Source: Phycisphaerae bacterium RAS2 (GTDB lineage Bacteria > Planctomycetota > Phycisphaerae > UBA1845 > UTPLA1). From it: 64,000 bases of DNA. Under the pieces are notes generated by a model. The model saw only the letters and a list, made by a program, of their open reading frames with translations, did not search any database and had not been told where the DNA came from. Where the stretch lies: contig CP036352.1 in NCBI GenBank assembly GCA_007753915.1, forward strand, positions 1,178,001-1,242,000, given 5' to 3'. A program made the position numbers and the translations under genes. Shown here one piece after another: positions 12,685 through 37,674 of this stretch; position 1 is the first letter of the stretch; each line of letters begins with the position of its first letter.

Positions 12685-13254
12685 TCAAATCTGGGAGTCA
12701 AAAACGTGGACCTTGCCCCCGTGCTCGACGGTGAAAACATCGCCGCCCAGCTCCATGTCCCTCCCGATTCCGTCGTAATCGATGTGATAGCGCATGAAGT
12801 CGGGCAGACCTTTGAGCACGTCGCAGTAGCAATCATCGATCAGGTCGGACGCGTAATCAGCCAAGCTGTCGAAGGCTCCGCGGTATGCCTCATCCATGTA
12901 GCGGCGGGCCTCGTCAACGTTGGATGCATCGCCAAGGTGGTTCACCAAATCGGCAAACAGCGGGCCATGCTCGGCCATGAGTCGGGCGACCTCGGCAACA
13001 TGTTCCAGATTCTCGAATTCGGAAAGGCGAAGTGTGCCGAAGTTATCGTAATCGTGGATGGCCCATTCCTCGGCGATGGGTTGACGCGATTTGGCAAGCA
13101 TCTGGGCGACTTGTTTGCGGATGTCCTCAACCGGTTGGTTAGCGTCAATCCAACAACCGTGCAGGTAGCCGGCGGTGTAGTCAGCTAGCGAGGCTACGTA
13201 GATACGCGGCGTTACATCGGTTCCGGTTGTGCGAGTCGCGTCATGTTGTTCCAT
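12685..13254 (-). CDS. ardA: ArdA-type anti-restriction protein
   Basis: ArdA proteins are elongated acidic dimers that mimic bent B-form DNA and block type I restriction-modification enzymes when an element enters a new host. This 189-residue product matches the family along its length: PRIYVASLADYTAGYLHGCW near the start, WIDANQPVEDIRKQVAQML, EEWAIHDYDNFG, EVARLMAEHGPLFADLV, YRGAFDSLADYASDLIDD, and YHIDYDGIGRDMELGGDVFTV near the end. It is strongly acidic. The ATG at 13254 has GGAGG three bases upstream; the longer frame to 13299 has no better site. It is the third gene of a four-gene minus-strand operon. Confidence 0.93.
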   Translation of the reverse strand: MEQHDATRTTGTDVTPRIYVASLADYTAGYLHGCWIDANQPVEDIRKQVAQMLAKSRQPIAEEWAIHDYDNFGTLRLSEFENLEHVAEVARLMAEHGPLFADLVNHLGDASNVDEARRYMDEAYRGAFDSLADYASDLIDDCYCDVLKGLPDFMRYHIDYDGIGRDMELGGDVFTVEHGGKVHVFDSQI

Positions 13255-13277
13255 AATCCTCCGTTCAAATGATGTGT

Positions 13278-13613
13278 TTATAAAACTGTTAATCCCCAAA
13301 CGAGGTCGGCCAGCCCTTCGGCAAGAAGGGCGACAATCCGCGCGGCCAGGTCGGTCCGTGGCGCAACATCCAGGCCCCGGTCCCAGTTGTAAACCGTCAC
13401 GCCATCGTCAAGCCGTTGCACCCAGAGTTTTGAAATTCGACTTGTTGTGTTGACTTCCCACTGACGGTTGACAGCCGGTTGGGAAAAAACCAACGCGGAA
13501 AACCTGTGGCCGGCTATCGTCCCGCCGACCCATGCACCGCCGGCCGCGGTTCGGCTCCGCATCATCGTGACTTCGAGCGTTTCCATCACGTCATCGTGCG
13601 TCATCAGTTCCAT
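13278..13613 (-). CDS. Hypothetical protein co-transcribed with ardA
   Basis: This 111-residue protein has a strand-rich middle (AWVGGTIAGHRFSALVFSQ, RISKLWVQRLDDGVTVYNWD) and a C-terminal helix (LAARIVALLAEGLADLVWG). It resembles small plasmid proteins found beside ardA, but I cannot name a function. Its ATG lies inside the end of the upstream gene: the two overlap by ten bases (ATGGAACTGA), a sign of translational coupling. The ardA start follows 24 bases after its stop. A DNA-mimic accessory or ArdA partner is possible by context only. Confidence 0.7.
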   Translation of the reverse strand: MELMTHDDVMETLEVTMMRSRTAAGGAWVGGTIAGHRFSALVFSQPAVNRQWEVNTTSRISKLWVQRLDDGVTVYNWDRGLDVAPRTDLAARIVALLAEGLADLVWGLTVL

Positions 13614-13846
13614 AGTTCTTCCGAAATGAGACGATCGTGTCCCAACGGCCGCGTGTTTAACTCGTGGTCAGAAAGCGCGGGTACATCAAAACCCCGGAGA
13701 CGAGGCACTTCGAGAATGCTGCCTTCCCGATTCGTTAGACCATTCTTAGCAAGGAATCGATCGGGAGTTCCCTCGGAGTGCAATTTCACCGTAACATATA
13801 TTTGGCACATTATGCAACGGTTGATGTAACTTTTTTTGTCAGGCAT
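13604..13846 (-). CDS. Small hypothetical protein, first gene of the ardA operon
   Basis: The frame codes for 80 residues from ATG 13846; a shorter version starts at the ATG of MCQIYVTVKLHSEGTPD. The sequence is well mixed (DRFLAKNGLTNREGSILEV, ALSDHELNTRPLGHDRLISE) and ends overlapping the next gene by ten bases, which supports it as the operon's first gene. No good ribosome site is visible before either start. The family is unknown to me. Its 5' end faces the divergent IS630-like gene at 13856, so the two promoters must overlap. Confidence 0.55.
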   Translation of the reverse strand: MPDKKSYINRCIMCQIYVTVKLHSEGTPDRFLAKNGLTNREGSILEVPRLRGFDVPALSDHELNTRPLGHDRLISEELWN

Positions 13847-13855
13847 GATGAAAAG

Positions 13856-14272
13856 ATGCGGGCCGCAATCGTCATTTCATTGAGTAGAACGGAGCGTCAA
13901 ATCCTGCGACGTTGGGCCAGCGGGGTGAATAGCCGGCTCGCCCAGCGGGCGAGAATCGTTCTCCTCGCGGCCGATGGACTTCAAAACAAGCAGATTGCCG
14001 CCGAGCTTGGCACCGATGAGCAAACCGTCAGCCGTTGGCGGTCTCGCTTCTCTTCCAAGCGAAACGCAGGCATCGAGCACGAAGCCCATCGCTCTGGTCG
14101 CAAACGCCTCGCCCGCGAACGTCTGGCCGGCAAGATTTTGCGGATGGCCAAGCACCGCGAGAGCAGCCAGTATCCGTGGAGCGCCCGCACGCTGGCGAAG
14201 ACCCTCGGCGTAAACCACATGCTTGTCTATCGTGTATTGAAGGAGAACGGCCGGTTCAATGGACGGACGTGA
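13856..14272 (+). CDS. Orphan N-terminal HTH region of an IS630-type transposase
   Basis: The 138-residue product matches the DNA-binding N-terminal half of IS630-family transposases: SLSRTERQILRRWA, RLAQRARIVLLAADGLQNKQ, IAAELGTDEQTVSRWRSRF, and a second HTH, WSARTLAKTLGVNHMLVYRV. It stops right after the second HTH. The DDE catalytic domain is absent and no remnant of it is visible in the next 200 bases. It is either a truncated transposase or a domesticated DNA-binding protein. The frame extends upstream to 13778, but the ATG at 13856 is where homology begins. Confidence 0.75.
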   Translation: MRAAIVISLSRTERQILRRWASGVNSRLAQRARIVLLAADGLQNKQIAAELGTDEQTVSRWRSRFSSKRNAGIEHEAHRSGRKRLARERLAGKILRMAKHRESSQYPWSARTLAKTLGVNHMLVYRVLKENGRFNGRT

Positions 14273-14487: not shown

Positions 14488-14724
14488 CTAAGCGGCCTTC
14501 TGGGCGTGAATCCACGTGTGGGCGTCATCGAGGGCCTTGGCGAGGACAAGAAGGTCGTCCCTGCCGAAGCCGCTCGACTCCTTCCACTCGTCACCCTCCT
14601 TGTAGATGCGCGCGACGGTGACGTTGTGCATGGAGCCGTTGGCGGTTTCGTTTTTCCAAATGACCGCCTTGATGCTGCCGTATCGGATCTCGTGAACCGG
14701 CTTGTTGGATGCTTGTTTGGACAT
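14488..14724 (-). CDS. IKAxIW family small protein, copy 1
   Basis: This 78-residue protein belongs to a family present three times in the window (also 25506-25766 and 26245-26487). Shared features are an IKAVIW strand, NVTVARIYKEGDEWKES, and a C-terminal helix DDLLVLAKALDDAHTWI. The strand-strand-strand-helix pattern recalls PC4/YdbC-like single-stranded nucleic-acid binders, but that is only a resemblance. AGGAGA precedes the ATG at 14724, so the longer frame to 14778 is not used. This is the copy closest to the consensus. Confidence 0.8.
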   Translation of the reverse strand: MSKQASNKPVHEIRYGSIKAVIWKNETANGSMHNVTVARIYKEGDEWKESSGFGRDDLLVLAKALDDAHTWIHAQKAA

Positions 14725-15239
14725 AAGCGTATCTCCTAACCTTGTCTGCGAGGGTCCGGGCAGCTCCACCTGATACAAACGTTATGGAGGGGTCGGCGCG
14801 AGACGTTGCACAAGGCAACGCAGCGCAGACCCTGGCTGCTGTCTTGATCTGCCGTATTCGGCCGTCGTCGTTGGGGCTCGCAGCAGGGGGTCCCCGACGA
14901 GGGCGGCCGATGAAGAGCAGGCCATCCCCCCCGAGACATTTCATCCACGCTGCCGGATCGGTTCGGAGTCGGAGGGCGCTCCAAGACCGTCTGCAAGTGC
15001 ATTCATCGCCGCGAGGCGGCGTGGGCAAGAATTCGATGAGCCTGCTGTGCCTTCTTTCAGCAAATCGCCGGCCAATTCCACGAATCGTCTCTTGAGTCAA
15101 CGACAAGGCCAATCCCAACGATTCGCTTCGCTGTCGAGCGTTTCCATACGGAGAGACGAGAGATTCTGAGCAGAACGGCATGAAGATCAGGCGTTGGGTT
15201 GGGGGTGAGCGTCAATTCTGGTAGCCTTATAATCGCATT
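14725..15239. other. Intergenic stretch, no convincing gene
   Basis: Several frames are open here on both strands, but none reads as protein: they are dominated by Arg, Pro, Ser and Cys in the way shadow frames are. A weak hairpin CGTTGC/GCAACG lies at about 14803-14819. Divergent promoters for the flanking genes are expected, and a TATAAT lies at 15228. Confidence 0.4.
15228..15233 (+). promoter_or_regulatory. Candidate -10 box (TATAAT) for the 534-residue protein gene
   Basis: A perfect TATAAT stands at 15228-15233. A transcript would begin near 15240, exactly where a TTG start opens the long frame, so a leaderless mRNA is possible. No good -35 box is seen at 16-18 bases. The match may be chance. 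Confidence 0.35.
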
Positions 15240-15284
15240 TTGGAAACGTCCCCTTCAAAGTCGGGGGCAACGGGAATTGCGCGC

Positions 15285-16889
15285 ATGGCAAGGCGACAAC
15301 GCGGAAAACCCACTTCTCCCAGCGCTGCTCAACCTCCCGAGGGCAAAGGAGTGGGCGCGACGAGAGCCGTTGCCCACGACGGATTTCCTCTCGATGAAAT
15401 CAGGCATACGTTCATCCTCTATGATCCTGAAAGCCGAACATTCGGCGTTCCGGCGCAGCCAGAGGGTTTCCAATTCTTTTTGCTTGACGCCTGCACTAGC
15501 TTCGCACGGTTAATCGACGAGGTTGCCGAACACATTCGAATTACTCGCGCCGAGATCGTCATGGACGAACCTGGCCGGGATCGCAGGGGACCCGGGTACG
15601 TCCTGGCGCCTCGTTTGGATCACGAGACCAGTGAGGCGGCTAATTTCTTACCTTCTCGACCCCGCGCTGAACCGGCCGTCGGAATAAGACTCATGGACCT
15701 CGCAGGCGCCATCGCACCTTACGGCCGTCCCTTTGTGCGGGTGGAGGCATATACGGAGTTAGGAGCCTCGGATTTAGCCGGTCTCTGCTGGGTCGGCTTG
15801 AACAAGCTCGCCAATGCCTGTGCTGACTTACGCTCGAATCCCATGGTCGTCGTTCGTGCCCCGAACAATGGCACCATCCGTTTCAACCTTGCCCGTCGTG
15901 TCGAAACGAAGCTGCATCCCATTAATCGCGAGCCCTCTCCCGCGATCGCTCCCGGTACGGGTGTCATATACCCGACTCCGAACAAACTCTCCGTCAAAGA
16001 GCACGAGCTGCTTGTTGTCGGTTTTAGTCCTTCCACTGGGCAAATCGTCGACCGGTCTGTCCTGCCGCCCGGTACCGGCAGAGAACTGGTGTTCGTGCAG
16101 AATGTCGCCGACGTGATGTCATCTGCATTGGATAAGCTTGATGCAAGCGATCGTAAGAAGCTCGCTGACGCGATGGTCCACTATCGAGCCCGCACCGTGG
16201 ATCTTGGATTGGATAGGAAAGCGATTCTCAGCATTCAGCCGTCGTCTGCCGGCGAGAAGCGTCTTGCCAAGGAACTGGCCTTGTTCTGCAAAATGCTTGA
16301 CCGACTCCCTCATGATCCGTTGCAGGAAACCGACACGCTCGGCGGCGGATACATGTCTTTTTCATTGCCCTTTGGGGCCGAATCGTGGGATGCTCGATTT
16401 GTGAAGGTGCGGCCGGATGACGAGAGAACACACGAAGCCTTTAGACAAGTTGATGACGCCTTGGCAAAAGTTCGCCTGCCAAGAGTAGCCGAACTTGATC
16501 CTGTCGATGCACTCGCGGTGCTGCAAGAATTTCGCGAGGTCCTGAATGACGGCTTCAATAGGAAGTGGGCAACAGACTATCTTGAGGATGTGCTGAGCCG
16601 CTTGCCCAGCCACCGCTTCGATACCCTCGGCAAGAAAGCCCGTCTCGTCAGCGCACTCGGTAAAGAGCTGACACGACTCGGTCTCGCGGTTGAATGCCCG
16701 ACATGTGGAAAACCATCGGCTCTAGTTTGCACTCGTTCGCAAGCCGATGGTGCATTTCAGTTCAACCACCTTGATAAGGGAGGCAGGCACAGCAAAGACG
16801 CGGCGAACCCGGACCGGCCCAATCACGTCGTGCCCCGTCTGAAACTTGTTCTCCGCCCTGCCGGGCATCGATCTAAACAACGTAAATAA
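15285..16889 (+). CDS. Large hypothetical protein with a C-terminal CxxC element
   Basis: The product is 534 residues from ATG 15285, or 549 from TTG 15240; neither has a good ribosome site. The first 30 residues are basic and Pro/Ser-rich. The body is mixed alpha/beta without membrane segments (FILYDPESRTFGVPAQPEGF, RLIDEVAEHIRITRAEIVMD, FVRVEAYTELGASDLAGLCW). The C-terminus has CPTCGKPSALVC followed by FQFNHLDKGGRH, which could form a small zinc site. I do not recognise the family. It stands just before the Hsp70 cluster on the same strand but is separated from it by a perfect palindrome. Confidence 0.7.
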   Translation: MARRQRGKPTSPSAAQPPEGKGVGATRAVAHDGFPLDEIRHTFILYDPESRTFGVPAQPEGFQFFLLDACTSFARLIDEVAEHIRITRAEIVMDEPGRDRRGPGYVLAPRLDHETSEAANFLPSRPRAEPAVGIRLMDLAGAIAPYGRPFVRVEAYTELGASDLAGLCWVGLNKLANACADLRSNPMVVVRAPNNGTIRFNLARRVETKLHPINREPSPAIAPGTGVIYPTPNKLSVKEHELLVVGFSPSTGQIVDRSVLPPGTGRELVFVQNVADVMSSALDKLDASDRKKLADAMVHYRARTVDLGLDRKAILSIQPSSAGEKRLAKELALFCKMLDRLPHDPLQETDTLGGGYMSFSLPFGAESWDARFVKVRPDDERTHEAFRQVDDALAKVRLPRVAELDPVDALAVLQEFREVLNDGFNRKWATDYLEDVLSRLPSHRFDTLGKKARLVSALGKELTRLGLAVECPTCGKPSALVCTRSQADGAFQFNHLDKGGRHSKDAANPDRPNHVVPRLKLVLRPAGHRSKQRK

Positions 16890-16934
16890 CAGCAGTTACG
16901 ACGAGTCATAAAGAAGGGCGCTATTTGGCTTGAT

Positions 16935-16956
16935 GTCTAGCCCCTGGGGGCTAGAC
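16935..16956. promoter_or_regulatory. Perfect 22-base palindrome upstream of the Hsp70 cluster
   Basis: GTCTAGCCCC (16935-16944) is repeated as its exact reverse complement at 16947-16956 with only TG between. There is no T-run. It may be the operator of the downstream operon, or a terminator-like hairpin ending the preceding gene. Position and symmetry favour a dimeric regulator's site. Confidence 0.45.
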
Positions 16957-17060
16957 TATATGCAACACCAATGGAATTCCCGGCGCCCTGGTCGATGCGG
17001 CGGTCGTCAGCCGTGGACGAGAGCGTGGGAGTGGGTCCGATCAGGAAGGAGAAAACGTAA

Positions 17061-17480
17061 GTGGCAACGAAAAAGCGAAAAAAGAAAGCGAAATCGTCGA
17101 GTGCGGTCGGGCTCATCAGGGAGATTGCCTCCGGCCGTCTCAACGTCGTTCACCTGGAAGCGCAAGGTCCAGTGCTGGCGTTGGTGCTTTCGTCGGACCA
17201 ATCGTGCAAGACAGACGATTTACAGACGCACTATCTGCGGCTGATTGCCCGGGGCGAGTCGCTGCTGTTCAAGGCGCTTTCGCCAGAAGAGGTCGAATTC
17301 AATCGGGAACTCTCACGGCTTGTCAGTAGCAGCGTGAGTTGGGTGGGCGGAAGGAAGTTGATCAATCTGACGATGTCCAGTCGACACGCGGCGCTCGATT
17401 TCGACGACGACGCACCCCTTGTCGATCGCATTGAATCATCCACCACGACGCCGGACCGCAACGACGTCAGTTCCATCTGA
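17061..17480 (+). CDS. Small basic hypothetical protein, first gene of the Hsp70 cluster
   Basis: The product has 139 residues from GTG 17061, with AAGGAG nine bases upstream. It begins with a Lys-rich tail (ATKKRKKKAKSSSA). A compact domain follows (GLIREIASGRLNVVHLEAQG, VLALVLSSDQSCKTDDL, YLRLIARGESLLFKALSPEE), then an acidic C-terminus. No membrane segment is seen. I do not recognise the family. Only 19 bases separate it from the GrpE-like gene, so it is probably part of the same transcript. Confidence 0.7.
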   Translation: MATKKRKKKAKSSSAVGLIREIASGRLNVVHLEAQGPVLALVLSSDQSCKTDDLQTHYLRLIARGESLLFKALSPEEVEFNRELSRLVSSSVSWVGGRKLINLTMSSRHAALDFDDDAPLVDRIESSTTTPDRNDVSSI

Positions 17481-17499
17481 ACGAAAGGGGCGTGACAAC

Positions 17500-18282
17500 A
17501 TGACAGCTTTCGCCGACGGGCCATCGGGGGCCGGTCCGGAATCGGAGCATGGGCATGATCGTTACGGAGCGTCATACTTCGCGCGCCAATGTAACAGCGC
17601 CGACCGGCGACGCGATCAGGGAGACGGTCCGGTCAAGAGGGATGTCGACAAAACGGCGCAGGTGTCTGACGTCGCAAGCCGGCTCACCAAGCTGGAAGCC
17701 CATATCGCACAAGCTGAAGTGACGATGCAGCGAGTGCTGGAAATTGCCGGCGACGTATGCCGGAAGATCGACGCTGTGATGGCGGTACTCGATGTGGTAG
17801 CCGGCGCGGTCAAGAAGCGATCTGTGGTTGACGACAAGGTACGCGAGCACGAGGAGAAGCACTTCCGGGACGAAATCCTGGGACCATTGCTGCTGCAGCA
17901 CATTCGGATTCTCGATCGCTTGGACGAAGACCGCGATTACCTACAGAGCCAGGCGAATCAAACGAGTCCCAGTCGGATTCCAACGTCCCAACAAATGATC
18001 GAGCGGACAATCAATGTCCGCGAGGCCGACCGCATCGATGTCTATCAGATTCTCCAGCAGTTTGAAGTGACGCGGTTTCGACCGCGCGTCGGTGACGCCT
18101 TCGATCCTGCGACACAAAAAGTGAAGGAGCAACGGCCCGCCAGCAAAACTGAGCCGGGCGGTTCCATCGCCGCCTGCCTTCGGCCCGGGTATCACCGACG
18201 GCGAGATCATTGGCTGGTGCGCCCTGCGTTGGTGGCGGTGTACCGCAATGAAGTTACGAAGCGAAAGGATGCGAAATCATGA
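17500..18282 (+). CDS. GrpE-like nucleotide exchange factor fused to a coiled-coil region
   Basis: GrpE speeds ADP release from Hsp70. In this 260-residue protein the C-terminal part matches the GrpE beta domain: VGDAFDPATQKV (197-208), then the Gly-Ser-Ile strand, CLRPGYHRRRDHWLVRPALVAVY (227-249) and a final Asn-Glu. The middle is helical and partly coiled coil (60-150, with KLEAHIAQAEVTMQRVLEIA), as in the GrpE dimer stalk. The first 50 residues are polar and probably disordered. Identification is strengthened by the next gene, an Hsp70 whose ATG overlaps this stop codon (ATGA). The start at 17500 is favoured over the longer frame by AAAGGGG upstream. Confidence 0.8.
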   Translation: MTAFADGPSGAGPESEHGHDRYGASYFARQCNSADRRRDQGDGPVKRDVDKTAQVSDVASRLTKLEAHIAQAEVTMQRVLEIAGDVCRKIDAVMAVLDVVAGAVKKRSVVDDKVREHEEKHFRDEILGPLLLQHIRILDRLDEDRDYLQSQANQTSPSRIPTSQQMIERTINVREADRIDVYQILQQFEVTRFRPRVGDAFDPATQKVKEQRPASKTEPGGSIAACLRPGYHRRRDHWLVRPALVAVYRNEVTKRKDAKS

Positions 18283-19763
18283 TCATCAGCATCGACTTTG
18301 GGAATTCCAAAGTGAAGTGCGCCTACCCCGACCGCACCGGCCAGACTGTCGCCGTGAAGAACGGTCATGGCGGGAACGGACTGAGGGCCTGCGTCTACAT
18401 CGATGGATCAGGTCAATGTCTTGTTGGCGACGATGCCCACGAGCAGGGGTTCGTCGATCCGCAGAATGTGGTCCGCCACTTCAAACTCAGTCTCGGAAGC
18501 GATCAAAAACTGCTCGGGGGCAAGAATGCCGCAGAGTTGGCAGAGATCCTTATCTTAGCCGCAAAGCAGTTTGCCGAGAAGCAGGCCGGCGAATCGGTTG
18601 ATGCGGCCGTGATCTCGGTACCGGCGAACTTCACGGACAAACAGAAGAAGGCCCTACAGCAGGCATGTGAGTCCGCGGGCATCAAGGTCTTGAGGGTGAT
18701 CAGCGAACCGGCGGCAGCGGCCTTCGCTTACGCCGAGCAGAATTCGAGCAACAAACGCGGCAGCAAGATCGCTGTGTATGACCTGGGCAGCAGCACGTTT
18801 GATTGCGCGATCTGCGAGTCGAACGGTGATGAAATTCTGGTACTGGCGACAGAGGGCGTCCAGAAACTGGGCGGTGATGACCTCGATGAGGTCCTGAAGC
18901 AGGTCATCCTGGACAAGCTGGAGAAAAAGACGGGAAAGGACTGTCGCGTGGCGTTGAGCGATCCCTTCTTCGCACTGGATTTGGACACGCGCGCGGCCGG
19001 AGCCAAGATCAGCCTCGGCAAACGGGACAAAGTGCAAATCCCGATGAGCTTGAAAGGGCAGCATTATGTCATCTCGGTCACAAAGGCCGAGTTTGAGAAG
19101 GCGATCAAGGCGTTGATCGAAAGAACTCTCGACTGCCTCGACAAGTTGTTTGCAACCGCGGGGATCACCGTCCGCGACCTCACGAGCCTGTACCTGGTCG
19201 GGGGTCCCAGTCGGATGCCGTTCATTCAGGACATGGTCGCCAACCGGACGGGCATGGTGCCGCGGATGGAGATCGACCCTGAAATGGCGGTGGCGCATGG
19301 CGCTGCGCTGGTGGCTGTCTCGGAAATGGCGAAGCAGGGGACGCCGGCGCGGATCGGCGGCGACACGATTCCGCAGCCGGACGCGTTTTTGAAGGAAGCC
19401 ACGCACCACGACATTGGCATCGCCGTGGAAGATCGGAGCGGCGGGGGCAAACGCATCGTGAATGCCGTTGTCGTCGCCAAAAACACGCCGGTACCGTGCA
19501 AGGTGCCGCCCCAATACTTCCGGCTCGAATCGCCAGATCAACGGGATGTGCTGATCGAAATCTTACAAGGCCCCGACCGCGCCGACATCAAGGACTGCCT
19601 CATCATCGGCCGGTTGGAGTTGAACGACCTGCCCGTTGAAGCCGCTAGGTCGCCCCGGATCGAAATCAAGTGCGAGTTCGATCAGAACACGTTCGTCACG
19701 GTGACGGCCCGCGACACGATTTCTGGCAAGGAAGTCTCGGTGAGGGTGGAAGTTCTCAAATAG
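18279..19763 (+). CDS. Short Hsp70 (DnaK-like) without the alpha-helical lid
   Basis: The protein has 494 residues. The nucleotide-binding domain spans about 1-355, with phosphate-1 DFGNSKVKCAY (6-16), SEPAAAAFAY (142-151), phosphate-2 DLGSSTFDCAI (168-178) and adenosine motif VGGPSRMPFIQ (307-317). The substrate-binding beta domain follows at 375-494 (VVVAKNTPVP, FVTVTARDTISGKEVSV). It ends there: the helical lid and EEVD-like tail of DnaK, about 130 residues, are missing. Phosphate motifs deviate from the DnaK forms (DLGTTNS, DLGGGTFD), so this is a divergent branch. The ATG overlaps the GrpE-like stop. It probably works with that partner and the vWA protein rather than in general protein folding. 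Confidence 0.9.
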   Translation: MIISIDFGNSKVKCAYPDRTGQTVAVKNGHGGNGLRACVYIDGSGQCLVGDDAHEQGFVDPQNVVRHFKLSLGSDQKLLGGKNAAELAEILILAAKQFAEKQAGESVDAAVISVPANFTDKQKKALQQACESAGIKVLRVISEPAAAAFAYAEQNSSNKRGSKIAVYDLGSSTFDCAICESNGDEILVLATEGVQKLGGDDLDEVLKQVILDKLEKKTGKDCRVALSDPFFALDLDTRAAGAKISLGKRDKVQIPMSLKGQHYVISVTKAEFEKAIKALIERTLDCLDKLFATAGITVRDLTSLYLVGGPSRMPFIQDMVANRTGMVPRMEIDPEMAVAHGAALVAVSEMAKQGTPARIGGDTIPQPDAFLKEATHHDIGIAVEDRSGGGKRIVNAVVVAKNTPVPCKVPPQYFRLESPDQRDVLIEILQGPDRADIKDCLIIGRLELNDLPVEAARSPRIEIKCEFDQNTFVTVTARDTISGKEVSVRVEVLK

Positions 19764-19792
19764 TCAGTGAACAGATACTGAGAGTCAGTAAC

Positions 19793-20551
19793 ATGAAACC
19801 TTCTTCGTCGAAACGACCACCGGCAGACACTACTTCCCCGGATGCATCAGTTGTGCTTCGTCGACCAACTCCCGCGCATCGATTGGTGGCGGACAACTCG
19901 ACAGGCAGTGCGGCCCCTTCGGCGAATCCGTTGCACATGCCGACCGCGACTGCTGATTCGCTCCCGATGCGCACCCGTCGGACTGTGATAGTCGTGGACG
20001 CGTCGGGAAGCATGATGGAACGAGATTGGCCTCCGAATCGCCTCTGGGGTGCGACGAATGCCGCGCAAGACTATGCAGATGCATCAGCACAATGTGGTGC
20101 ACGCAACGAGGTCGCAGTAGTCGCCTACGGGGAGTGCGCGCGGATCATGTGTTGCTTCATTAGCTGTGGCGCACGAAAGGAACTTCAGGTCGCACTTGGT
20201 GCAATCGGAATGTATGGAGCGACAAATATCGCGGCCGGCTTGGAGGCTGCGGAACATCTGTTCATTCCGTTCACGCATTCAGGTGCTGGAGACGAACTGG
20301 TCGTTCTGCTCCTGACAGACGGCAAGCATAACTGTCGCAGCAATCCGGTGGAGTGGGCGGACCGATTAAAGAGCCTTGGAGTCGTCATTGACGCCGTGGG
20401 AATCGGTGGTGATCACGCTCAGGTAGACGAGGCGCTTCTCAGGAGGTTGGCATCGGAAGACGGTGACGGACGAATACGGTATCGGTTCATCGGAGACCCG
20501 GAACGCCTGGCGGCGCATTATCGGCAAATGGCCGGGCGTCTCACGCGATAG
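19793..20551 (+). CDS. von Willebrand factor A domain protein with intact MIDAS
   Basis: The product has 252 residues. The first 60 are Pro/Ser/Thr-rich and probably disordered. The vWA domain (63-245) has a complete metal-binding MIDAS: DASGSM (69-74), the Thr of MYGATN (T144) and TDGKH (175-179). Such domains bind protein partners through Mg2+. No signal peptide is present, so it acts in the cytoplasm. It starts 29 bases after the Hsp70 stop and ends seven bases before the coupling-protein gene. This places a metal-dependent adaptor between a chaperone and a membrane ATPase. Confidence 0.85.
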   Translation: MKPSSSKRPPADTTSPDASVVLRRPTPAHRLVADNSTGSAAPSANPLHMPTATADSLPMRTRRTVIVVDASGSMMERDWPPNRLWGATNAAQDYADASAQCGARNEVAVVAYGECARIMCCFISCGARKELQVALGAIGMYGATNIAAGLEAAEHLFIPFTHSGAGDELVVLLLTDGKHNCRSNPVEWADRLKSLGVVIDAVGIGGDHAQVDEALLRRLASEDGDGRIRYRFIGDPERLAAHYRQMAGRLTR

Positions 20552-20558
20552 GTACAGC

Positions 20559-22955
20559 ATGCGGACTGACATCGACAGGTTGTTCACTTGCGAAATGCTA
20601 CCGGGCACTGCGCGATCAGCGTTGGTACGCGCCGGTATCACTGCTCAGGTGAAGGCAGCAGGCTGCATATTGCTCCTTGCGCTTCTCTTGGTTTGGAGTC
20701 GATTCGCGGGCTTGGCGGCTGTATGGTGTTTTGTGTGGCTCGTGCAGCGGAAGATGCACTCGAATGCCCCGCTGACGTTTTACCGCGAATTCCATCTTCG
20801 GCAGGGACACGTTGCGCCAACCGAATCGGTGAAAGCGCCGCGACCGGAGTGGTTGCCGTATGCAATTAGCGCCGTACTGATCCTGATTCCTTGGGTCCCT
20901 CTTGCGACGCTAACCGCTGCCTCGATCGTACTGGTAGCAATCGATTCCCACCGTCGTCGGATTCCTCGCCGACTGGAAGGCGCGATCCGCCTGCACGCCG
21001 ATGCCTACCTTGTATACGCGGCGTACCCGGACGATCGGTATGGCCGGCCCGGTGGCCTCTGGATCCCGCGGGAATCCATGAAGGCTCGGCAGCGCGACGT
21101 ATCGCGATCACTCTTTCCGACTTGCGCTGCATTGGCCGTTGCCGCCCTGTACGCATTCGCAGGGACCGGGTTTTCACCCGGCTCAGGCTTATCTGTCTCA
21201 CTCAGCGTACTCGATGTGATTTCGTTGCTTGCCTTGCTGCCACTTCCCAGCCTGGTCTTGTTCTGCATGCAAATGGTGCCCTTCGCAGGATTCATCGCAA
21301 AACTGGTCCCGGTTGCGCGCAGCATGACTGAATGGGAAGATGCTGTTGACCTGGTTTCCAATTCCAAGGTGTTCCACGGAGACCTCCACCTTTCGGACCA
21401 TCTGTTCTTGGGGTTCTACCCACCTACTTACGAAGCGGCCGAACATCCTTTCAAGTTCGTGGGGCCGTTTGATCTTCCGTGCCGTTCGCCGGTCCTGCTT
21501 CATCGTTCGATTCTAGAGGGAAACGTCCATGTGCTAGGGTCCGCGCAAAGTGGAAAGACGAGCCTTGGAATAATCGGATTGCTCATCCAGCTCATCCGTG
21601 GACACGGTGTTCTCCAGCGCAATCGAGCTGGCCGACCCGTTGTCAACGGCCATGGCGAGCACGTGTGGAACTGGTCTGAACGTGTGCCGACTCTCATCAT
21701 CGACATGAAGGGCGATCTTGCCCTGTTTAATACCGTTCGGATCGAATGCGAGAAGCGCGGTCAGGCCTGTCATTATTTCTCGTTGTCAAAAGGGCTGGCG
21801 ACATCGTACTTCAATCCGATCACAAATCTGAATGTCCAGGATCGCCCTGTCGTCGAGTTCTGCGAACTCGTACTGAACGCACTTAGCCTCTTTCACGGAT
21901 TGAGCTATGGCCGATCGTACTATTCCAAACAGTCCCGCGATCTTTTGATAGCCACGCTTAAGAGTTTAACACGGAAGCCGCAGTCCTGGGAGGAGTTGTA
22001 CCAGACGCTCCTGACGGAGATAAATCCCAAAAAGCACAAGGACGTGTTCGAACTGGTATCGAGCATTTTTGTACTCGCGCAATTCCCGGTTCTCGGGCCG
22101 GCTCCGGACGGCGTCGACGTGATTCACATGCCATCCGTGATTGAGAACTGCGAGGTATGCTTCTTCTCTTTGCCAGCGCGTCTCAGCGCCATCAGCGCGC
22201 GCGATGTCGCGAAGCTCGCGCTCTTCTGCTTCGTTACGGCGGCTGGCGATTGGAATGATCGACATCCTGAACGTCGCAGCTTCATTTTCCTGGACGAAGC
22301 TCAAATCATCTGCTCGTCAAACATGGGGACGCTGTTTCAACAGTGCTCGGGCGCCAAGACCGCGATGATTCTCAGCAATCAGGCAAGATCGGATCTGAAC
22401 GTCCCGGACGCACCGATGCTCAGCGAAACAGTCCGTGTCAACACACGAATGAAACAAATGTTCACGGTAGCCGATCCACGTGATGCGCTGGACCTGATGG
22501 GAATGTCCGGTGAGCGCCTCGGCATTCTGCGTTCGTACTCGTCCGGCATGAGCGGCGGCAATGCGACTTCGAGCGTGAGCGAACAGGAAGTATTGCATTC
22601 GGTCTTGACTCAGAACGCAATCAACGTCGTAAACAATGATCGCACGGGCTCGCTGCTTCACATTATGACCGGCGCTGGCTACACGCAGCCTCTTGGAATA
22701 CCAATGCACATTCGCACACCGTATCCAATGACCCACAAGGAATACAAGCTGCGCATGTACACGCCCTGGCCGAGCGTCCCCGAGACGATTCGGCGAGGCG
22801 CTCACCCAGTGCGAACGGTGATGAACAAGCACGAGCCAGAAGAAGTTCAGGATCTGGCGGAGCAGCAAAGTGCCCGGCTGATGGAGTTTTTCCAACAGAC
22901 TGCCCGGCGCGCTGGCCGCCACCGAATGCGCGATTGGCAGGAAGAGGGCGATTGA
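20559..22955 (+). CDS. TraD/TraG-like type IV coupling ATPase
   Basis: This 798-residue membrane ATPase has a hydrophobic N-terminal region with about four to six segments (AGCILLLALLLVWSRFAGL, YAISAVLILIPWVPLATL, LFPTCAALAVAALYAFAG, LLALLPLPSLVLFCMQM). The cytosolic RecA-like domain has Walker A GSAQSGKTS (about 327-335), TLIIDMKGDLALFN, Walker B FIFLDEAQ (about 575-582) and MILSNQARSDLNVP, as in VirD4/TraG proteins that deliver DNA-protein complexes to a type IV secretion channel. The start at 20559 lies just after the vWA stop; the longer frame overlaps that gene. No relaxase or VirB4 gene is near, so the substrate is unknown. Confidence 0.85.
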   Translation: MRTDIDRLFTCEMLPGTARSALVRAGITAQVKAAGCILLLALLLVWSRFAGLAAVWCFVWLVQRKMHSNAPLTFYREFHLRQGHVAPTESVKAPRPEWLPYAISAVLILIPWVPLATLTAASIVLVAIDSHRRRIPRRLEGAIRLHADAYLVYAAYPDDRYGRPGGLWIPRESMKARQRDVSRSLFPTCAALAVAALYAFAGTGFSPGSGLSVSLSVLDVISLLALLPLPSLVLFCMQMVPFAGFIAKLVPVARSMTEWEDAVDLVSNSKVFHGDLHLSDHLFLGFYPPTYEAAEHPFKFVGPFDLPCRSPVLLHRSILEGNVHVLGSAQSGKTSLGIIGLLIQLIRGHGVLQRNRAGRPVVNGHGEHVWNWSERVPTLIIDMKGDLALFNTVRIECEKRGQACHYFSLSKGLATSYFNPITNLNVQDRPVVEFCELVLNALSLFHGLSYGRSYYSKQSRDLLIATLKSLTRKPQSWEELYQTLLTEINPKKHKDVFELVSSIFVLAQFPVLGPAPDGVDVIHMPSVIENCEVCFFSLPARLSAISARDVAKLALFCFVTAAGDWNDRHPERRSFIFLDEAQIICSSNMGTLFQQCSGAKTAMILSNQARSDLNVPDAPMLSETVRVNTRMKQMFTVADPRDALDLMGMSGERLGILRSYSSGMSGGNATSSVSEQEVLHSVLTQNAINVVNNDRTGSLLHIMTGAGYTQPLGIPMHIRTPYPMTHKEYKLRMYTPWPSVPETIRRGAHPVRTVMNKHEPEEVQDLAEQQSARLMEFFQQTARRAGRHRMRDWQEEGD

Positions 22956-23140
22956 TGGTTTTTTCATACTGTCCACAGCGGTTGTGCTTCTGTGGCCTCG
23001 AAGCCGTTTTGGAGGTGAAACAGACGGCAGGTTGAAACGTTGTCGTGAGTTTCGTGTGGCCTGTCAGAAATGTCTGCACCGACTGACTGACTCAATCGAG
23101 GCAGTGAGCAGGATGTAGATAAAAACTAACAGGAGAATAT

Positions 23141-23293
23141 ATGCAAATTGAAGAAAAACACACGAAGACTCATCACGTTCACGTTGAATTCCCGTTCGAT
23201 GTGCGTGCAACCGGGCGGGCAATTCGGTGGCTGATTCTGGGCTTCTGCCTAGGCGTAGCCGTCCACAACCTCGTCGGTGTGATGCATTGCTAG
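23141..23293 (+). CDS. 50-residue single-span membrane protein
   Basis: This small ORF has AGGAG six bases before its ATG. Its product starts MQIEEKHTKTHHVHVEFPFD, a His- and charge-rich head, and ends with a hydrophobic span WLILGFCLGVAVHNLVGVM followed by His-Cys. It is probably a one-helix membrane protein with the head in the cytoplasm. The stop is followed after 13 bases by a hairpin shared with the convergent small gene. Nothing is known about its family. Its position after the coupling-ATPase gene suggests a link to conjugation or entry exclusion. Confidence 0.6.
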   Translation: MQIEEKHTKTHHVHVEFPFDVRATGRAIRWLILGFCLGVAVHNLVGVMHC

Positions 23294-23306
23294 CACCAAA
23301 GCACGT

Positions 23307-23332
23307 CGGGACTGAGCTCACGCTCAGTCCCG
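23307..23332. terminator. Bidirectional hairpin between two convergent small genes
   Basis: CGGGACTGAG (23307-23316) pairs perfectly with CTCAGTCCCG (23323-23332) around a 6-base loop. It lies between the stops of the + gene (23293) and the - gene (23336). On the minus strand TTTTAAGTT precedes it, and neither side has a strong T-run, so it is only a moderate terminator. Confidence 0.55.
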
Positions 23333-23335
23333 AAC

Positions 23336-23464
23336 TTAAAAGGTCCCCGGCGTCGTGACAATCCATCCCACGATAAAGCCGGTCATAACGAGTAGTGCCC
23401 TAAGGAACGGTGAGAGACCGTCAGAGTCGTGGGCAGCTTTGATTTTCTGTAGTAGCTGTTTCAT
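23336..23464 (-). CDS. 42-residue single-span membrane protein
   Basis: On the minus strand a 42-codon ORF encodes MKQLLQKIKAAHDSDGLSPF, an amphipathic basic head, followed by a hydrophobic span LRALLVMTGFIVGWIVTTPG. It is convergent with the 50-residue protein gene and shares the terminator hairpin. The ribosome site is weak (GGTTGG). The sequence character, rather than the start signals, argues that it is real. Two tiny membrane proteins tail to tail could form an exclusion or toxin-like pair, but that is speculation. Confidence 0.5.
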   Translation of the reverse strand: MKQLLQKIKAAHDSDGLSPFLRALLVMTGFIVGWIVTTPGTF

Positions 23465-23586
23465 GAACCAACCATAGCACAGGAGCTAGGTAGAACAATA
23501 GTTTTTTTAGTCGAGGCCGCAACGACGCGAAAGAACAGCGGCATTGGACGATCCATGACGAGATGTCTCCAAATGGTTGAGAGTCT

Positions 23587-23610
23587 CTGAGGTCCCTTCG
23601 GGGTCCTGAG
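23587..23610 (+). promoter_or_regulatory. Second UUCG hairpin in a leader region
   Basis: Bases 23590-23596 and 23601-23607 pair around TTCG with one mismatch (CCC/GGG next to the loop). It lies about 150 bases before the winged-helix gene. The same type of hairpin precedes the DUF932 gene at 2228. The remaining 23465-23762 gap shows no convincing gene, though a short Met-rich frame (MEASMQTNESVLLIMV) starts at 23653. Confidence 0.35.
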
Positions 23611-23762
23611 CGATTGTTTAACCAGTCTTCGCGACGTCGCGGAGGCATATCAATGGAGGCGTCTATGCAAACGAATGAAAGCGTTTTGCTGATCATGGTT
23701 CGGGGCAAAGGGCCTCCTCTCTGGCGAGGGGGGGCTCATGCCTTGTTTCGAGTGGGGTACCG

Positions 23763-24473
23763 ATGGCAGAGCACGCGACAACAAAAATGTGGACCAAACC
23801 CGATCAGCTCACGGCGATCGACCGGCAGGGCAGCGCGTTGCGCATTCAGCTAACTGCCCGAGATGTGATTATTCTGGATGCAATCACGCATCGGGTGAAG
23901 CTGCTTAGCCTGCCTCAGATCGCACGCACTTGGTGGAAAGGGTCGCGGGCCATCATGCAGGCCCGCAAGAGAATAAGACAATTGGCATTGGCCGGCTATC
24001 TGGAACGACTTCAGCTCTTCACCAACCAAGAAGTGATGCTCCTGGCACCGTTGGCAACCTGGCATTCGGGCATGGCGGTTCCCGACTTTTCCACCATTGT
24101 GCGACTAACCCGGACGCGCTGGGAGCTGCCTATCCGCTCAACTGCGTGCGTTGTTGCCACTTCAGTATCCGCAGTGCGCACTGGCGGCAGCTATCGCATC
24201 CCACGAAACAGCGAGGCGACACACGATCTCCACGTCGCTCAAGTTTATTTACACAAGTTGCGGCAGGCGCCGCGGTATGCCGAGAAGTGGAGCGGTGAAA
24301 TGGAGCTCCTGACTCGCGACATCGCGCCGTGCGACAAGGTGCCCGACGCGCTGATTCGTCAAGCTGGTCGCTGCACAGCCGTAGAAGTTGTCGGTGAATC
24401 ATACAGCGTGACCAAACTCATGGCGTTTCACGAGTTTTGCTCCCGAAGGTCCTTTACATACGAATTGTGGTAG
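23763..24473 (+). CDS. Winged-helix protein with a PD-ExV C-terminus (replication-relaxation-like)
   Basis: This 236-residue protein has an N-terminal winged helix (QLTARDVIILDAITHRVKLL, then RKRIRQLALAGYLERLQLF) as in the replication-relaxation family of mobile elements. Its C-terminal half has THDLHVAQVYLHKLRQA, WSGEMELLTRD, CDKVPDALIRQAGRC, AVEVVGESYSVTKLMAFHEF and a final YELW. The PD then E-x-V spacing recalls PD-(D/E)xK nucleases, but the catalytic Lys is replaced. A role in initiating replication or transfer is inferred. The next gene has a similar N-terminal domain and starts four bases after this stop. Confidence 0.65.
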   Translation: MAEHATTKMWTKPDQLTAIDRQGSALRIQLTARDVIILDAITHRVKLLSLPQIARTWWKGSRAIMQARKRIRQLALAGYLERLQLFTNQEVMLLAPLATWHSGMAVPDFSTIVRLTRTRWELPIRSTACVVATSVSAVRTGGSYRIPRNSEATHDLHVAQVYLHKLRQAPRYAEKWSGEMELLTRDIAPCDKVPDALIRQAGRCTAVEVVGESYSVTKLMAFHEFCSRRSFTYELW

Positions 24474-24477
24474 CAGT

Positions 24478-25335
24478 ATGGAACCTGACGATCGGCACAT
24501 CATGGAACACCTTGGACGGTATCGCGTGAGTATCCGTCAGATTCTCGCGATGTTAAAGGCCGGGGCGCATCTGTCGGACGCATCCGTTTCCCGACTTCAC
24601 CGCACTGGCCTGATTGCGATTAATCGGGGACTCCCTGGCAATCGAAGCATCTACCAGCTGACAAAAAGGGGAGCTGCATTGATTGGAGTGTCCGAGGCAC
24701 GGGCACGTCCCTTTCGATCTCAGGCCCTCTTGAAGCATTTGGGCATTCTGCTGTTCTGTCATGTCGAAGGAGCGCACCGATACCGACTCGAAGATGACGA
24801 ACTACGAATGATCGTTGGCGAGCCCCTTCCAGAAGGGGCTCACTGCATGGCGATGTTTGATGGCCGCGTGCAGGTGCTCAACGTGTACGTACCTGGTCAG
24901 AGAACATCCATCCGGTCGGTGACGCGGCGCATTCGCGAACATTTGGATGAAGTGCGGCGCCTGCCAAAGGTTCGCGAACTGCTGGAAGCGGGTAACTATG
25001 GCTTCGCCATCGTGTCGCAGACGACGGAGCGCAGATCGGCAATCCTCCGGGCGCTGAGAATTCCTGAGCGGGATGGCGGAGGGCCGCTTGCCAAGCAGGT
25101 CAGCACACGGGTCGAGGCGCTGCCGACGTTTGATCTCGTCCTCAATGGCAAGTCGCCAAGCCAGAAGCCAAAACAGCCACGACACAATGAATCGGCGTTG
25201 ATGTTTGAACCAGCGGATTCCATGGAAAGGATGGTAACGAGACGCTCGCCGCTCTTGAAGAAGAAGGATGAGGCATCTCCGATGTTGCCCGATCCCTTGG
25301 ATGAGATTGATTTGGAATCGGAGAGCATTGAATAA
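24478..25335 (+). CDS. Second winged-helix protein paired with the previous gene
   Basis: The product has 285 residues. The N-terminal 75 form a winged helix (EPDDRHIMEHLGRYRVSIRQ, ASVSRLHRTGLIAINRG, SIYQLTKRGAALIGVSE). The middle has GILLFCHVEGAHRYRLEDDE and GRVQVLNVYVPGQRTSIRSV, then RIREHLDEVRRLPKVRELLE and GNYGFAIVSQTTERRSAIL. The last 70 residues are polar and probably disordered. I recognise the fold type but not a specific family. The close spacing to the 23763 gene suggests the two proteins act as a pair, possibly a heterodimer at an origin. Confidence 0.65.
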   Translation: MEPDDRHIMEHLGRYRVSIRQILAMLKAGAHLSDASVSRLHRTGLIAINRGLPGNRSIYQLTKRGAALIGVSEARARPFRSQALLKHLGILLFCHVEGAHRYRLEDDELRMIVGEPLPEGAHCMAMFDGRVQVLNVYVPGQRTSIRSVTRRIREHLDEVRRLPKVRELLEAGNYGFAIVSQTTERRSAILRALRIPERDGGGPLAKQVSTRVEALPTFDLVLNGKSPSQKPKQPRHNESALMFEPADSMERMVTRRSPLLKKKDEASPMLPDPLDEIDLESESIE

Positions 25336-25505
25336 GAAACGCTTTGATGAGCAATCGCCGCTATCAAAATGCAATCGTGAGAACTCGGCTGGATGCGGAT
25401 ATTAACAGCTTTGCCTCCGACAACTGAGGCGTCGTGAAAAGACATGAGCACAAACTGTAAATCGGATTGTGAACCCACTTTCAAAGTTCAGAAAGGAGCT
25501 ATGAC

Positions 25506-25766
25506 ATGGCTGATGTAAAGACGAGAGGCACGAAGAACCTGCCGGCGCACGAGATGCGGATCGGCGCAATCAAGGCGACCGTTTGGAGCAACGCAGTGCC
25601 CAGTGGGGCGGTGATGTTCAACACGGTCCTCGTGAGGCTGTACCGCGACGACCAGGGCTCATGGTGCGAGACCCATTCCTTGGGCCGTGATGATCTACTC
25701 ACAGCCGCCAAGGTTCTGGATTTGGTCCATACCTGGGTTTCGCAGGCGGAACGTAAGCAGGCGTGA
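25506..25766 (+). CDS. IKAxIW family small protein, copy 2
   Basis: This 86-residue paralogue of 14488-14724 shares AIKATVWSNAVPSG, FNTVLVRLYRDDQGSWCE, GRDDLLTAAKVLDLVHTWV and a Lys/Arg-rich end. AAAGGAG precedes the ATG by about six bases. It stands alone on the plus strand, 170 bases after the winged-helix pair and 125 before the DUF1580 gene. Three divergent copies in one element suggest different partners or expression times, not simple duplication. The proposed nucleic-acid-binding role is inference from the strand-helix pattern. Confidence 0.8.
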   Translation: MADVKTRGTKNLPAHEMRIGAIKATVWSNAVPSGAVMFNTVLVRLYRDDQGSWCETHSLGRDDLLTAAKVLDLVHTWVSQAERKQA

Positions 25767-26244: not shown

Positions 26245-26487
26245 TCAGTCGTTTGTAGGCGTTGGTACTTTTCGCAATTGGATGCGCGAATGAGCATCAA
26301 GGGCGGCCTTGGCAAGCATCGGTAAGTCGCTTTCGTTGAAAGACGCAGAGTCCTTCCACGCATCGCCCTCGCGGTATCGACGCGTGAAGGTGACCGTAAA
26401 GAAACGGCCGGTGTTCGTGTCATTCTGCCAAATTGCGGCCCGAATCGGGCTGTAGAACAAGGTATCAACGGGCGGGTTTGTTTCCAT
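26245..26487 (-). CDS. IKAxIW family small protein, copy 3
   Basis: This third paralogue (80 residues) is on the minus strand, convergent with DUF1580. It has SPIRAAIWQNDTNTGRFFTV, FTRRYREGDAWKDSASF and ESDLPMLAKAALDAHSRIQL. A perfect AGGAGG lies five bases before the ATG at 26487, so the longer frame to 26511 is rejected. This copy is the most diverged at its C-terminus. It is separated from the partition genes by 30 bases on the same strand and may share their transcript. Confidence 0.8.
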   Translation of the reverse strand: METNPPVDTLFYSPIRAAIWQNDTNTGRFFTVTFTRRYREGDAWKDSASFNESDLPMLAKAALDAHSRIQLRKVPTPTND

Positions 26488-26517
26488 TTCATCCTCCTGA
26501 TAGTCGCTCAAAATCCG

Positions 26518-27932: not shown

Positions 27933-28205
27933 ATTCCGGCTCCAGTTGTTTGTTTTCATTGACGTCCGACAGCCCGCCGACGAGTTGACGGGACGGCGGG
28001 AACTCATGTCGCAACTTATGAGTGCGTATCACGAACACCGGCGTGAGCGCAAGGGGGGGTTCAAGGATGTTCACATTCGGTTGCACCCGTGGCATGCAAA
28101 ATCAAGCAACCGGCAACCGAGGGCAGCAACAGCCCCTGGAGGGCGGGACTTCCCGCTGACGGGCTCGCGGAGAATCCGGCTTGCGCACTGACAACAAGGC
28201 GCGCT

Positions 28206-28390: not shown

Positions 28391-28518
28391 CGCAGTGTCC
28401 CGCGCGTGTCAATCCCTGTTGCAGCCAATCAATCCACGTGTAGCTACCGGTCTCTTTTGACCGCGGCCTCCGGGTATCACGGACGCCCGCCGAGTGTCCG
28501 TTCAAACTGTGTTTGACA

Positions 28519-37489: not shown

Positions 37490-37510
37490 GGCAGGCTCCT
37501 GAAGCACGCA

Positions 37511-37531
37511 GGGGGTAATTACCCCCTTTTT
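37511..37531. terminator. Perfect palindrome GGGGGTAATTACCCCC with T-run upstream of the integrase
   Basis: Five G's (37511-37515) pair with five C's (37522-37526) around TAATTA and are followed by five T's on the plus strand. It is a terminator for plus-strand transcription approaching the tRNA, or an operator in the integrase leader. It lies 22 bases upstream of the integrase ATG. Confidence 0.5.
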
Positions 37532-37592
37532 GGGCTTCCTGAGCCGCACTGCTCGACGCGAGCAGGTTCGCTAATGATCGATCGGCCAATGG

Positions 37593-37602: not shown

Positions 37603-37674
<72 letters not shown>

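Follow-up and report, generated by a model that had tools for sequence, protein, structure and literature searches.

A 64-kb window of DNA from Phycisphaerae bacterium RAS2 was analysed, corresponding to C1:1178001-1242000 of a 4.32 Mb genome in a single contig; coordinates without a prefix refer to the window and those marked C1 to the genome contig. Between 17500 and 22955 the window carries, head to tail, genes for a GrpE-like protein, an Hsp70 without its lid, a von Willebrand factor A (vWA) protein with an intact metal-ion-dependent adhesion site (MIDAS), and an ATPase of the TraD/HerA class; the first three are referred to here as the triad. Together with two further genes, RR1 and RR2, they make up the module that is the subject of this report, and the features are as follows.

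17500-18282, forward strand: GrpE-like nucleotide exchange factor, with a long N-terminal part and a C-terminal GrpE domain (PF01025, 3.6e-9; relatives in the same position).
18279-19763, forward strand: Hsp70 without a lid, ATPase residues conserved (PF00012, 1.3e-72; alignment of 18; best PDB match DnaK, 5.6e-53).
19793-20551, forward strand: vWA protein, MIDAS intact (PF00092, 1.1e-13; alignment of 15).
20559-22955, forward strand: TraD/TraG/HerA-class ATPase with N-terminal hydrophobic segments and the Walker A motif GSAQSGKT (alignment; relatives match TraG-D_C/TrwB).
23763-24473, forward strand: RR1, Replic_Relax-like (PF13814 in 5 of 9 members at E<=0.05; conserved order).
24478-25335, forward strand: RR2, a second conserved partner adjoining RR1 (aligned in nine elements; conserved order).
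17061-17480, forward strand: open frame ("basic protein"), not conserved and not counted in the module (no Pfam match above cut-off).

The original prediction for this locus, made from the sequence of the window, had described a tightly packed module of five genes that began with the basic protein. The packing is borne out by the likely start sites (GrpE 17500, Hsp70 18279, vWA 19793, ATPase 20559), as the Hsp70 start overlaps the GrpE stop by 4 bases and the ATPase start, which lines up with those of its relatives, lies 7 bases past the vWA stop. The membership had to be redrawn: four of the five genes are conserved, but none of the loci compared contains a relative of the frame at 17061-17480, which is therefore placed outside the conserved module, to which RR1 and RR2 (23763-25335) belong. 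As predicted, no J-domain gene was recognised by eye between 17061 and 22955; a DnaJ-like gene was noticed by eye at 52466-53476, outside the mobile element on which the module lies. Promoter and terminator scans of 14900-25600 gave no excess over shuffled sequence.

The presence of GrpE-like, Hsp70 and vWA genes, as first proposed, was upheld by Pfam matches above cut-off for all three. The GrpE domain scores 37 bits against a cut-off of 25.8 and covers only positions 100-163 of the 165 in the model, and no meaningful match to the protein was found among PDB sequences. The Hsp70 scores 245 bits against PF00012 (cut-off 20.6) over the nucleotide-binding and beta substrate-binding domains. The lid of canonical DnaK is absent, the match to the DnaK model stopping at position 494 of 625, where the protein ends, and its loss, one of the features originally pointed out, is conserved, with 18 of 18 aligned module Hsp70s ending shortly past the beta substrate-binding domain. 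The altered phosphate loops that had also been described are real in the window Hsp70 (DFGNS and DLGSST) but do not characterise the family, most relatives having GTT and GGG. Residues D6, G8, K69, E143, D168, G170 and T173 are invariant in the same 18 sequences, and because of this invariance ATP hydrolysis by the module Hsp70s is likely intact; D6, K69, E143, D168 and T173 presumably correspond to the catalytic residues of DnaK. In the vWA protein the MIDAS (DxSxS...T...D) is indeed whole, its residues D-S-S-T-D being invariant in 15 of 15 sequences. In an Hsp70 tree the triad Hsp70s do not all fall into one group, and that of locus L087 sits on a long branch with DnaK. Neither PHROGs nor PADLOC offered an informative family for the proteins of the window module: the hits of the Hsp70 were an unnamed PHROG (6.6e-69), a PHROG for partition (1e-6) and PDC-M61B of PADLOC (7.6e-5), and the vWA protein hit an unnamed PHROG (8e-4).

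The ATPase, originally called TraD/TraG-like, retains that description through its relatives, which match TraG-D_C (6.2e-11) and TrwB_AAD_bind (1.7e-10). The window ATPase itself lies below the family cut-offs, with no Pfam family at E<=1, a match of 2e-5 and 23 bits to NCBIfam SXT_TraD (far below the cut-off of 366), and no PDB sequence at E<=0.1 when its profile was used; it has four hydrophobic segments at the N terminus. Genome-wide at E<=0.01, no match was found to VirB4 (TIGR00929), a search that was positive in 13 of 14 control genomes (1 of them above cut-off), or to the PF03432 relaxase, which was positive in 1 of the 14 controls, other relaxase families not having been searched. Since neither VirB4 nor a PF03432 relaxase was found, the module ATPase appears unlike an ordinary conjugation coupling protein there, and it is, for the same reason, the only candidate DNA mover found. 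A scan of IMG/VR with the window ATPase returned no relative, and tblastn against a plasmid collection returned no match for this ATPase or for the type termed c4 below, and two weak matches for the vWA protein. The closely similar ATPases at L071:8727-11123 and L073:8078-10474 have GSTGSRKT as Walker A, in which R replaces the last G before K.

Three types of ATPase accompany the triad, designated c5, c4 and c44; these labels, like c6, c11 and c40, are protein clusters coined in the present analysis. The window ATPase belongs to c5, the TraD/TraG-like type. The c4 ATPases are HerA/FtsK-like, and two of the three checked lack strong hydrophobic segments; in most loci they are accompanied by a cysteine-rich protein (c6) and a small one (c11/c40). 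Type c44 matches DUF87/HerA at 5.1e-8. The c44 and c4 ATPases weakly match a terminase PHROG (2e-6 and 6.5e-4), and an excisionase-like HTH_17 gene and an integrase often lie downstream of the vWA gene in elements of these two types.

RR1 accompanies the ATPase in every c5-type element having enough sequence. Its best match to Replic_Relax (PF13814) among the nine members is 1.8e-4; the window RR1 gives E 0.0093 and 16.5 bits, below the cut-off of 25.3. The small partner of c4 elements has D42 and E55 invariant and K69 nearly invariant in 15 sequences, and its best three PDB profile matches, all weak, are Cas4 (0.006), AF1548 (0.04) and a region of a reverse-transcriptase protein (0.32), which we take to be restriction-endonuclease-like (PD-(D/E)xK-like) folds, the last presumably the endonuclease region of an R2-type protein. 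From the D-x12-E spacing judged by eye, the small partner and RR1 might be the same domain, which is unproven; comparison of the c11/c40 and RR1 profiles was not significant (probability 0.4, E 0.15). In c44-type ATPases, a C-terminal small-partner domain was seen by eye only; the profile did not pick it up in the c44 loci.

Conservation of the module was evaluated mostly in draft genomes. Searching 200 relatives for the vWA protein yielded, at 1e-6, 37 places in 30 genomes, among them that of the window; a scan of genome contigs in which seven vWA sequences served as queries yielded 44 loci. The neighbours of every one of these places and loci were inspected, the loci of one contig being counted once. 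A single vWA profile, seeded from Hsp70-linked loci, scored all loci and separated 43 above 100 bits (lowest 124) from 26 at 98 or below. Five loci were left out of the counts, namely L044, L045, L047 and L048 (GrpE, no vWA match) and L046 (GrpE and Hsp70, no vWA). With the GrpE-like protein as query, relatives were found in 7 of 343 genomes, its own included.

The gene order is not unique to this genome. GrpE-Hsp70-vWA-ATPase-RR1-RR2 recurs in three genomes besides the window's (L071, of the same family; L073 and L086, of the same taxonomic order), and L083, in another genome of that taxonomic order, carries a module letter-for-letter equal to that of a Phycisphaerae metagenome-assembled genome (L104). 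Hsp70 adjoins vWA in 34 of the 43 upper-group loci, against none of the 26 more distant vWA loci. Of the other nine upper-group loci, L178, L179 and L188 have a kinase cassette, L084 and L117 are truncated by the end of their contig, and L078, L089, L116 and L121 are without Hsp70. GrpE was detected in 30 of the 34 Hsp70-vWA loci (26 of the 27 with at least 2.5 kb upstream). One or other of the three ATPase types was present in 25 of the 34, and in 25 of the 27 with at least 4.5 kb upstream, so that the Hsp70 and ATPase genes do co-occur elsewhere, as the original prediction needed.

Within these loci the triad behaves as an add-on unit, because the ATPase, RR1 and RR2 occur without it in nine other c5-type elements (L013, L016, L019, L021, L024 and L172-L175). 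There, no triad lies in the stretch examined and the order is RR1-RR2-ATPase; in the four triad-bearing c5 elements the order is triad-ATPase-RR1-RR2, and a fifth, cut locus (L176) shows ATPase-RR1-RR2. When 11 ATPases were placed in a tree, a branch supported at 100/100 set the four triad-associated ones apart from the rest. Pairwise distances co-vary strongly within the triad, with r of 0.87 for Hsp70-vWA (435 pairs), 0.90 for Hsp70-GrpE (351 pairs) and 0.76 for vWA-GrpE; none of 2000 permutations was as high for the first two, host relatedness being uncontrolled.

The elements of genomes G345 and G400 allow a closer comparison. They share some 18 kb of sequence at 90-93% nucleotide identity, against 79% for dnaK (1,251 bases aligned), and in each the end is marked by tRNA-Gly and by integrase DNA closely resembling that of the other; on these grounds, judged from DNA identity, a recent transfer between families is indicated. 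RR1, RR2 and the ATPase are 95-99% identical as proteins, against 79% for Hsp70, 76% for vWA and 36% for GrpE, and nucleotide identity falls to about 50% before and within GrpE. This divergence looks like cassette replacement, in one case. In 15 other pairs, Hsp70 was at least as conserved as the comparable GrpE and vWA proteins in 14, the vWA protein being more conserved in L113-L111. Across the pairs in which Hsp70 and the ATPase are both present, 12 in all, Hsp70 exceeded the ATPase in conservation in 10. The exceptions were L071-L073, whose sharp triad divergence is a single case, and window-L071.

The slot of GrpE-Hsp70 beside the vWA gene can be occupied by another driver altogether. In L178 and L179, genes for a PP2C phosphatase, a zinc-ribbon/FHA protein and a Ser/Thr kinase lie between a HerA-like ATPase and the vWA gene; Pfam matches in L178 are Pkinase 7.5e-42, PP2C 1.3e-18 and FHA 2e-8, and its ATPase, which matches no Pfam family, scores only 40 bits against the c44 profile. 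When the L178 kinase was searched in 114 genomes of the taxonomic order, three strong matches (1e-70) were obtained, the third of which, in G455 (L188), has PP2C, FHA, kinase and vWA in order, with a small-partner profile match just upstream at the contig end. The cassettes span L178:1127-7995, L179:1018-7719 and L188:4257-8472; the ATPase is cut off in L188, and the L179 ATPase match is split across several reading frames. In Pontiellaceae bacterium B12227 (L115:1485-9672), an ArdC-like gene and two caspase-domain genes (5e-12 and 6.7e-10) precede GrpE-Hsp70-vWA, the caspase genes occupying the place expected of the ATPase. One of these caspase-domain genes has TPR repeats, and a tRNA-Tyr gene is nearby. 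In L116 (Pontiella sulfatireligans), a vWA gene closely similar to that of L115 and a 239-aa gene lie beside tRNA-Lys, with no Hsp70 found.

That the module lies on a mobile element, as originally claimed, is supported by tRNA-Gly repeats and an integrase. The features of the element in the window are listed here.

37603-37674, reverse strand: tRNA-Gly gene, right-hand attachment site (ARAGORN; 3' end repeated at C1:1136587 and C1:1134990).
36248-37549, reverse strand: tyrosine integrase at the element end (PF00589, 5.1e-16; similar end with tRNA-Gly in G345 and G400).
8402-9430, reverse strand: tyrosine recombinase, also in other ATPase-bearing elements (PF00589, 1.9e-16; homologues in L013, L021, L024, L078 and L086).
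12685-13299, reverse strand: ArdA antirestriction protein (PF07275, 6.7e-39).
27009-28007, reverse strand: ParA-type ATPase of the element backbone (PF13614, 1.5e-35; also in related elements).
28513-29856, forward strand: possible replication protein, probably of the backbone (homologues in related elements, several beside ParA).

The 3' end of the tRNA-Gly gene is repeated at C1:1136587 (48 bases, 98%) and at C1:1134990 (44 bases, 100%), and the element in this gene is therefore about 79-81 kb, with its left end beyond the window. Its genes include ParA, the Rep-like protein, ArdA, a strawberry-notch helicase and the second recombinase. Cargo at C1:1142000-1171000, left of the window, includes two RND-type (metal-efflux-like) gene sets, judged by eye from N-terminal sequences, with a sigma-factor-like gene downstream. 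A second related element in the same genome (about C1:2.14-2.19 Mb) bears genes for ParA, a Rep-like protein, the ATPase and RR1-RR2, and the 60 kb examined hold no triad gene.

Several further frames lie near the module. The 549-aa gene at 15240-16889, upstream, has similarity confined to its C-terminal part (up to about 97 residues, in 4 of 113 other genomes), which rules it out as a conserved unit. A helix-turn-helix frame at 13778-14272, which we take to be IS630-type, resembles by eye the genes upstream of GrpE in L071 and L073 and may be a domesticated regulator. Three related proteins of about 90 aa (14488-14778, 25506-25766 and 26245-26511) belong to a family that recurs in many related elements; the one member scanned had no Pfam match.

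Association with tRNA genes extends to related elements. A tRNA gene was present in 17 of 38 stretches scanned (16 of 35 with contigs counted once), not all shown as insertion sites. No att repeats were found for 16 of the 17 tRNA-bearing stretches, and the elements are accordingly taken to be longer than the stretches examined. In L077, 43 bases of tRNA-Arg (11322-11397) recur exactly at 12648, on the far side as seen from the module, which the repeats do not span. In the single-contig genome G127, the 3' end of a tRNA-Asp gene beside an integrase is repeated 113 kb away, and metabolic-type genes were seen by eye in the 60 kb inspected. An integrase lies within 6.5 kb in 18 of the 27 Hsp70-vWA loci with at least 3 kb downstream; the nine without one nearby are the window, L043, L071, L073, L077, L087, L102, L109 and L115, and the element-end integrase of the window, G345 and G400 sits farther off.

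Comparison with known systems places the module near several of them. VirD4/TraD/TrwB coupling proteins resemble the ATPase in its N-terminal hydrophobic segments and in the TraG-D_C and TrwB matches of its relatives, but differ in that the window ATPase falls below the family cut-offs, in a genome where no VirB4 or PF03432 relaxase was found. Actinomycete AICEs use a single FtsK-like TraB pump, and share with this element an integrase, a tRNA site, one DNA translocase and no type IV secretion genes found; the window differs in its ATPase family, its added chaperone triad, and RR1 and RR2.

Among conflict systems, the GAP1-N2 GTPase-centric group includes members with HSP70 and GrpE, mainly in actinobacteria and firmicutes and with DnaJ or TPR fusions, as set out by Kaur et al. 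2020 (PMC7159879); its own HSP70 and GrpE beside conflict-type genes are the point of likeness, whereas no GTPase family match was found in the window genes scanned by Pfam, which are part of the element's genes. Type III-A CoCoNuT operons, as presented in PMC11090510, combine Hsp70-like domains, vWA genes, FtsK/HerA ATPases, an McrB-like GTPase and DUF2357/McrC proteins; an Hsp70-like protein, a vWA protein and an FtsK/HerA ATPase thus share one operon in both, but the same Pfam scan gave no McrB or DUF2357/McrC match. The TerY-P triad is described in PMC11090510 and PMC4978471 as a TerY-like vWA protein, a PP2C and a Ser/Thr kinase. The window module resembles it in placing a MIDAS-intact vWA gene beside NTP-using regulators and FtsK/HerA-class ATPases on islands, and the PP2C-FHA-kinase-vWA cassette of L178, L179 and L188 has the TerY-P composition given in PMC11090510. 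GrpE and the lidless Hsp70 stand in the window in place of kinase and phosphatase, and with no PP2C or Ser/Thr kinase Pfam match its module is not a TerY-P triad. The module is rated as a variant of vWA-regulated NTPase modules. Among the matches listed in open full texts, which leave subscription literature mostly uncovered, no description of GrpE-Hsp70-vWA with a DNA translocase was recognised.

Together, these findings suggest, with a probability of about 0.48, that GrpE-Hsp70-vWA is a replaceable chaperone switch that controls a DNA translocase and its partners on tRNA-integrating elements and serves the movement of the element. The three proteins would form a single working unit, in which the vWA protein would act as an adaptor that selects the target via its metal site, Hsp70 as the motor that binds and releases the target with each ATP cycle, and GrpE as the factor that resets Hsp70; stimulation of Hsp70 could come from a host J protein or from the vWA protein itself. 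The target would be the neighbouring TraD/HerA-class DNA translocase with its Replic_Relax-like or nuclease-fold-like partners, and by assembling or dismantling this DNA-processing machine the switch would set the timing of DNA processing and movement of the element. In sister elements, the kinase/phosphatase set would drive the same vWA slot. We infer physical contact between the proteins, the direction of control, and movement rather than defence; movement is preferred because of the proximity of integrases and tRNA genes, the ParA and ArdA backbone, the coupling-protein-like ATPase, and the finding of no other DNA mover. A more far-reaching proposal, which we hold to be doubtful, is that of an undescribed class of elements whose DNA would be moved, independently of any known relaxase and of type IV secretion, by a TraD/HerA-class pump, with a nuclease-fold or winged-helix partner for nicking or loading. 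The pump would be gated by an exchangeable cassette, either GrpE-lidless Hsp70-vWA, with the vWA protein serving as J protein, or PP2C-FHA-kinase-vWA.

Several results weigh against control of a translocase for movement. The ATPase-RR set of the nine elements without a triad indicates that the triad is dispensable for the role of the ATPase, and distances of the triad correlate with those of the c4 ATPase at r of 0.49-0.63, more weakly than within the triad. The split of 34 of 43 against none of 26 is partly circular, since Hsp70-linked loci supplied the seeds of the vWA profile. No ATPase was found in L076, where the triad lies with an integrase, or in L115, where it lies with caspases. The TerY-P-like replacement of GrpE-Hsp70 fits defence equally, as does the similarity of the ATPases to Mad8 of the MADS system in PADLOC (6.7e-18 for the L082-type ATPase, 2.4e-5 for L083, and 7e-4 for the window).

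The strongest alternative is accordingly a defence or element-versus-element system on integrase islands, which we consider a real, if lesser, possibility. The HerA-class ATPase and its nuclease-fold-like partner would attack incoming DNA, and GrpE-Hsp70-vWA would be the sensor or threshold switch, a role already suggested for TerY-P and further vWA/NTPase conflict systems. Besides the Mad8 similarity, this could account for the kinase cassette in the same slot of L178, L179 and L188, TerY-P-like modules being reported as antiphage in PMC11090510, for the caspase-domain genes of the Pontiellaceae genome, for the weak nuclease-fold-like matches of the small partner (0.006-0.32), and for a triad that has diverged beside a nearly unchanged ATPase, RR1 and RR2 in one element pair. 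It fits less well with the frequent proximity of the module to integrases, excisionase-like HTH genes and tRNA genes, with an ATPase-RR set that is part of a ParA-bearing backbone, and with PADLOC, in which no window module protein has a strong match.

A chaperone for replication of the element, with Hsp70 and GrpE activating its replication or partition proteins and the ATPase merely co-transcribed, appears improbable. DnaK-DnaJ-GrpE activates P1 RepA, and the window's element has ParA and a Rep-like gene as well as the Replic_Relax-like RR1, but the constant neighbour of the triad is the ATPase and not a Rep gene, and BLAST with the window ParA and Rep-like proteins found none in the c4-type stretches examined, which are part of each element. 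Ordinary cargo, that is, unrelated stress genes together by chance on an element that does bear other cargo such as the efflux sets seen by eye, is very hard to reconcile with an order shared by many genomes from several families and, going by record titles, from three phyla or more, and with the co-varying distances.

Hsp70 and its exchange factor are normally housekeeping proteins; in the module a small mobile-element version, without a lid in each of the 18 aligned members, is linked with one adaptor and with DNA translocases across many genomes. If the proposed control of a translocase by GrpE-Hsp70-vWA is true, the module would provide a dedicated Hsp70 with a defined client, an Hsp70 cycle that is free of J protein or assisted by the vWA protein, and a handle on gene movement in Planctomycetota. 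The swap of chaperone and kinase cassettes would, in turn, show vWA regulatory triads to be interchangeable parts.

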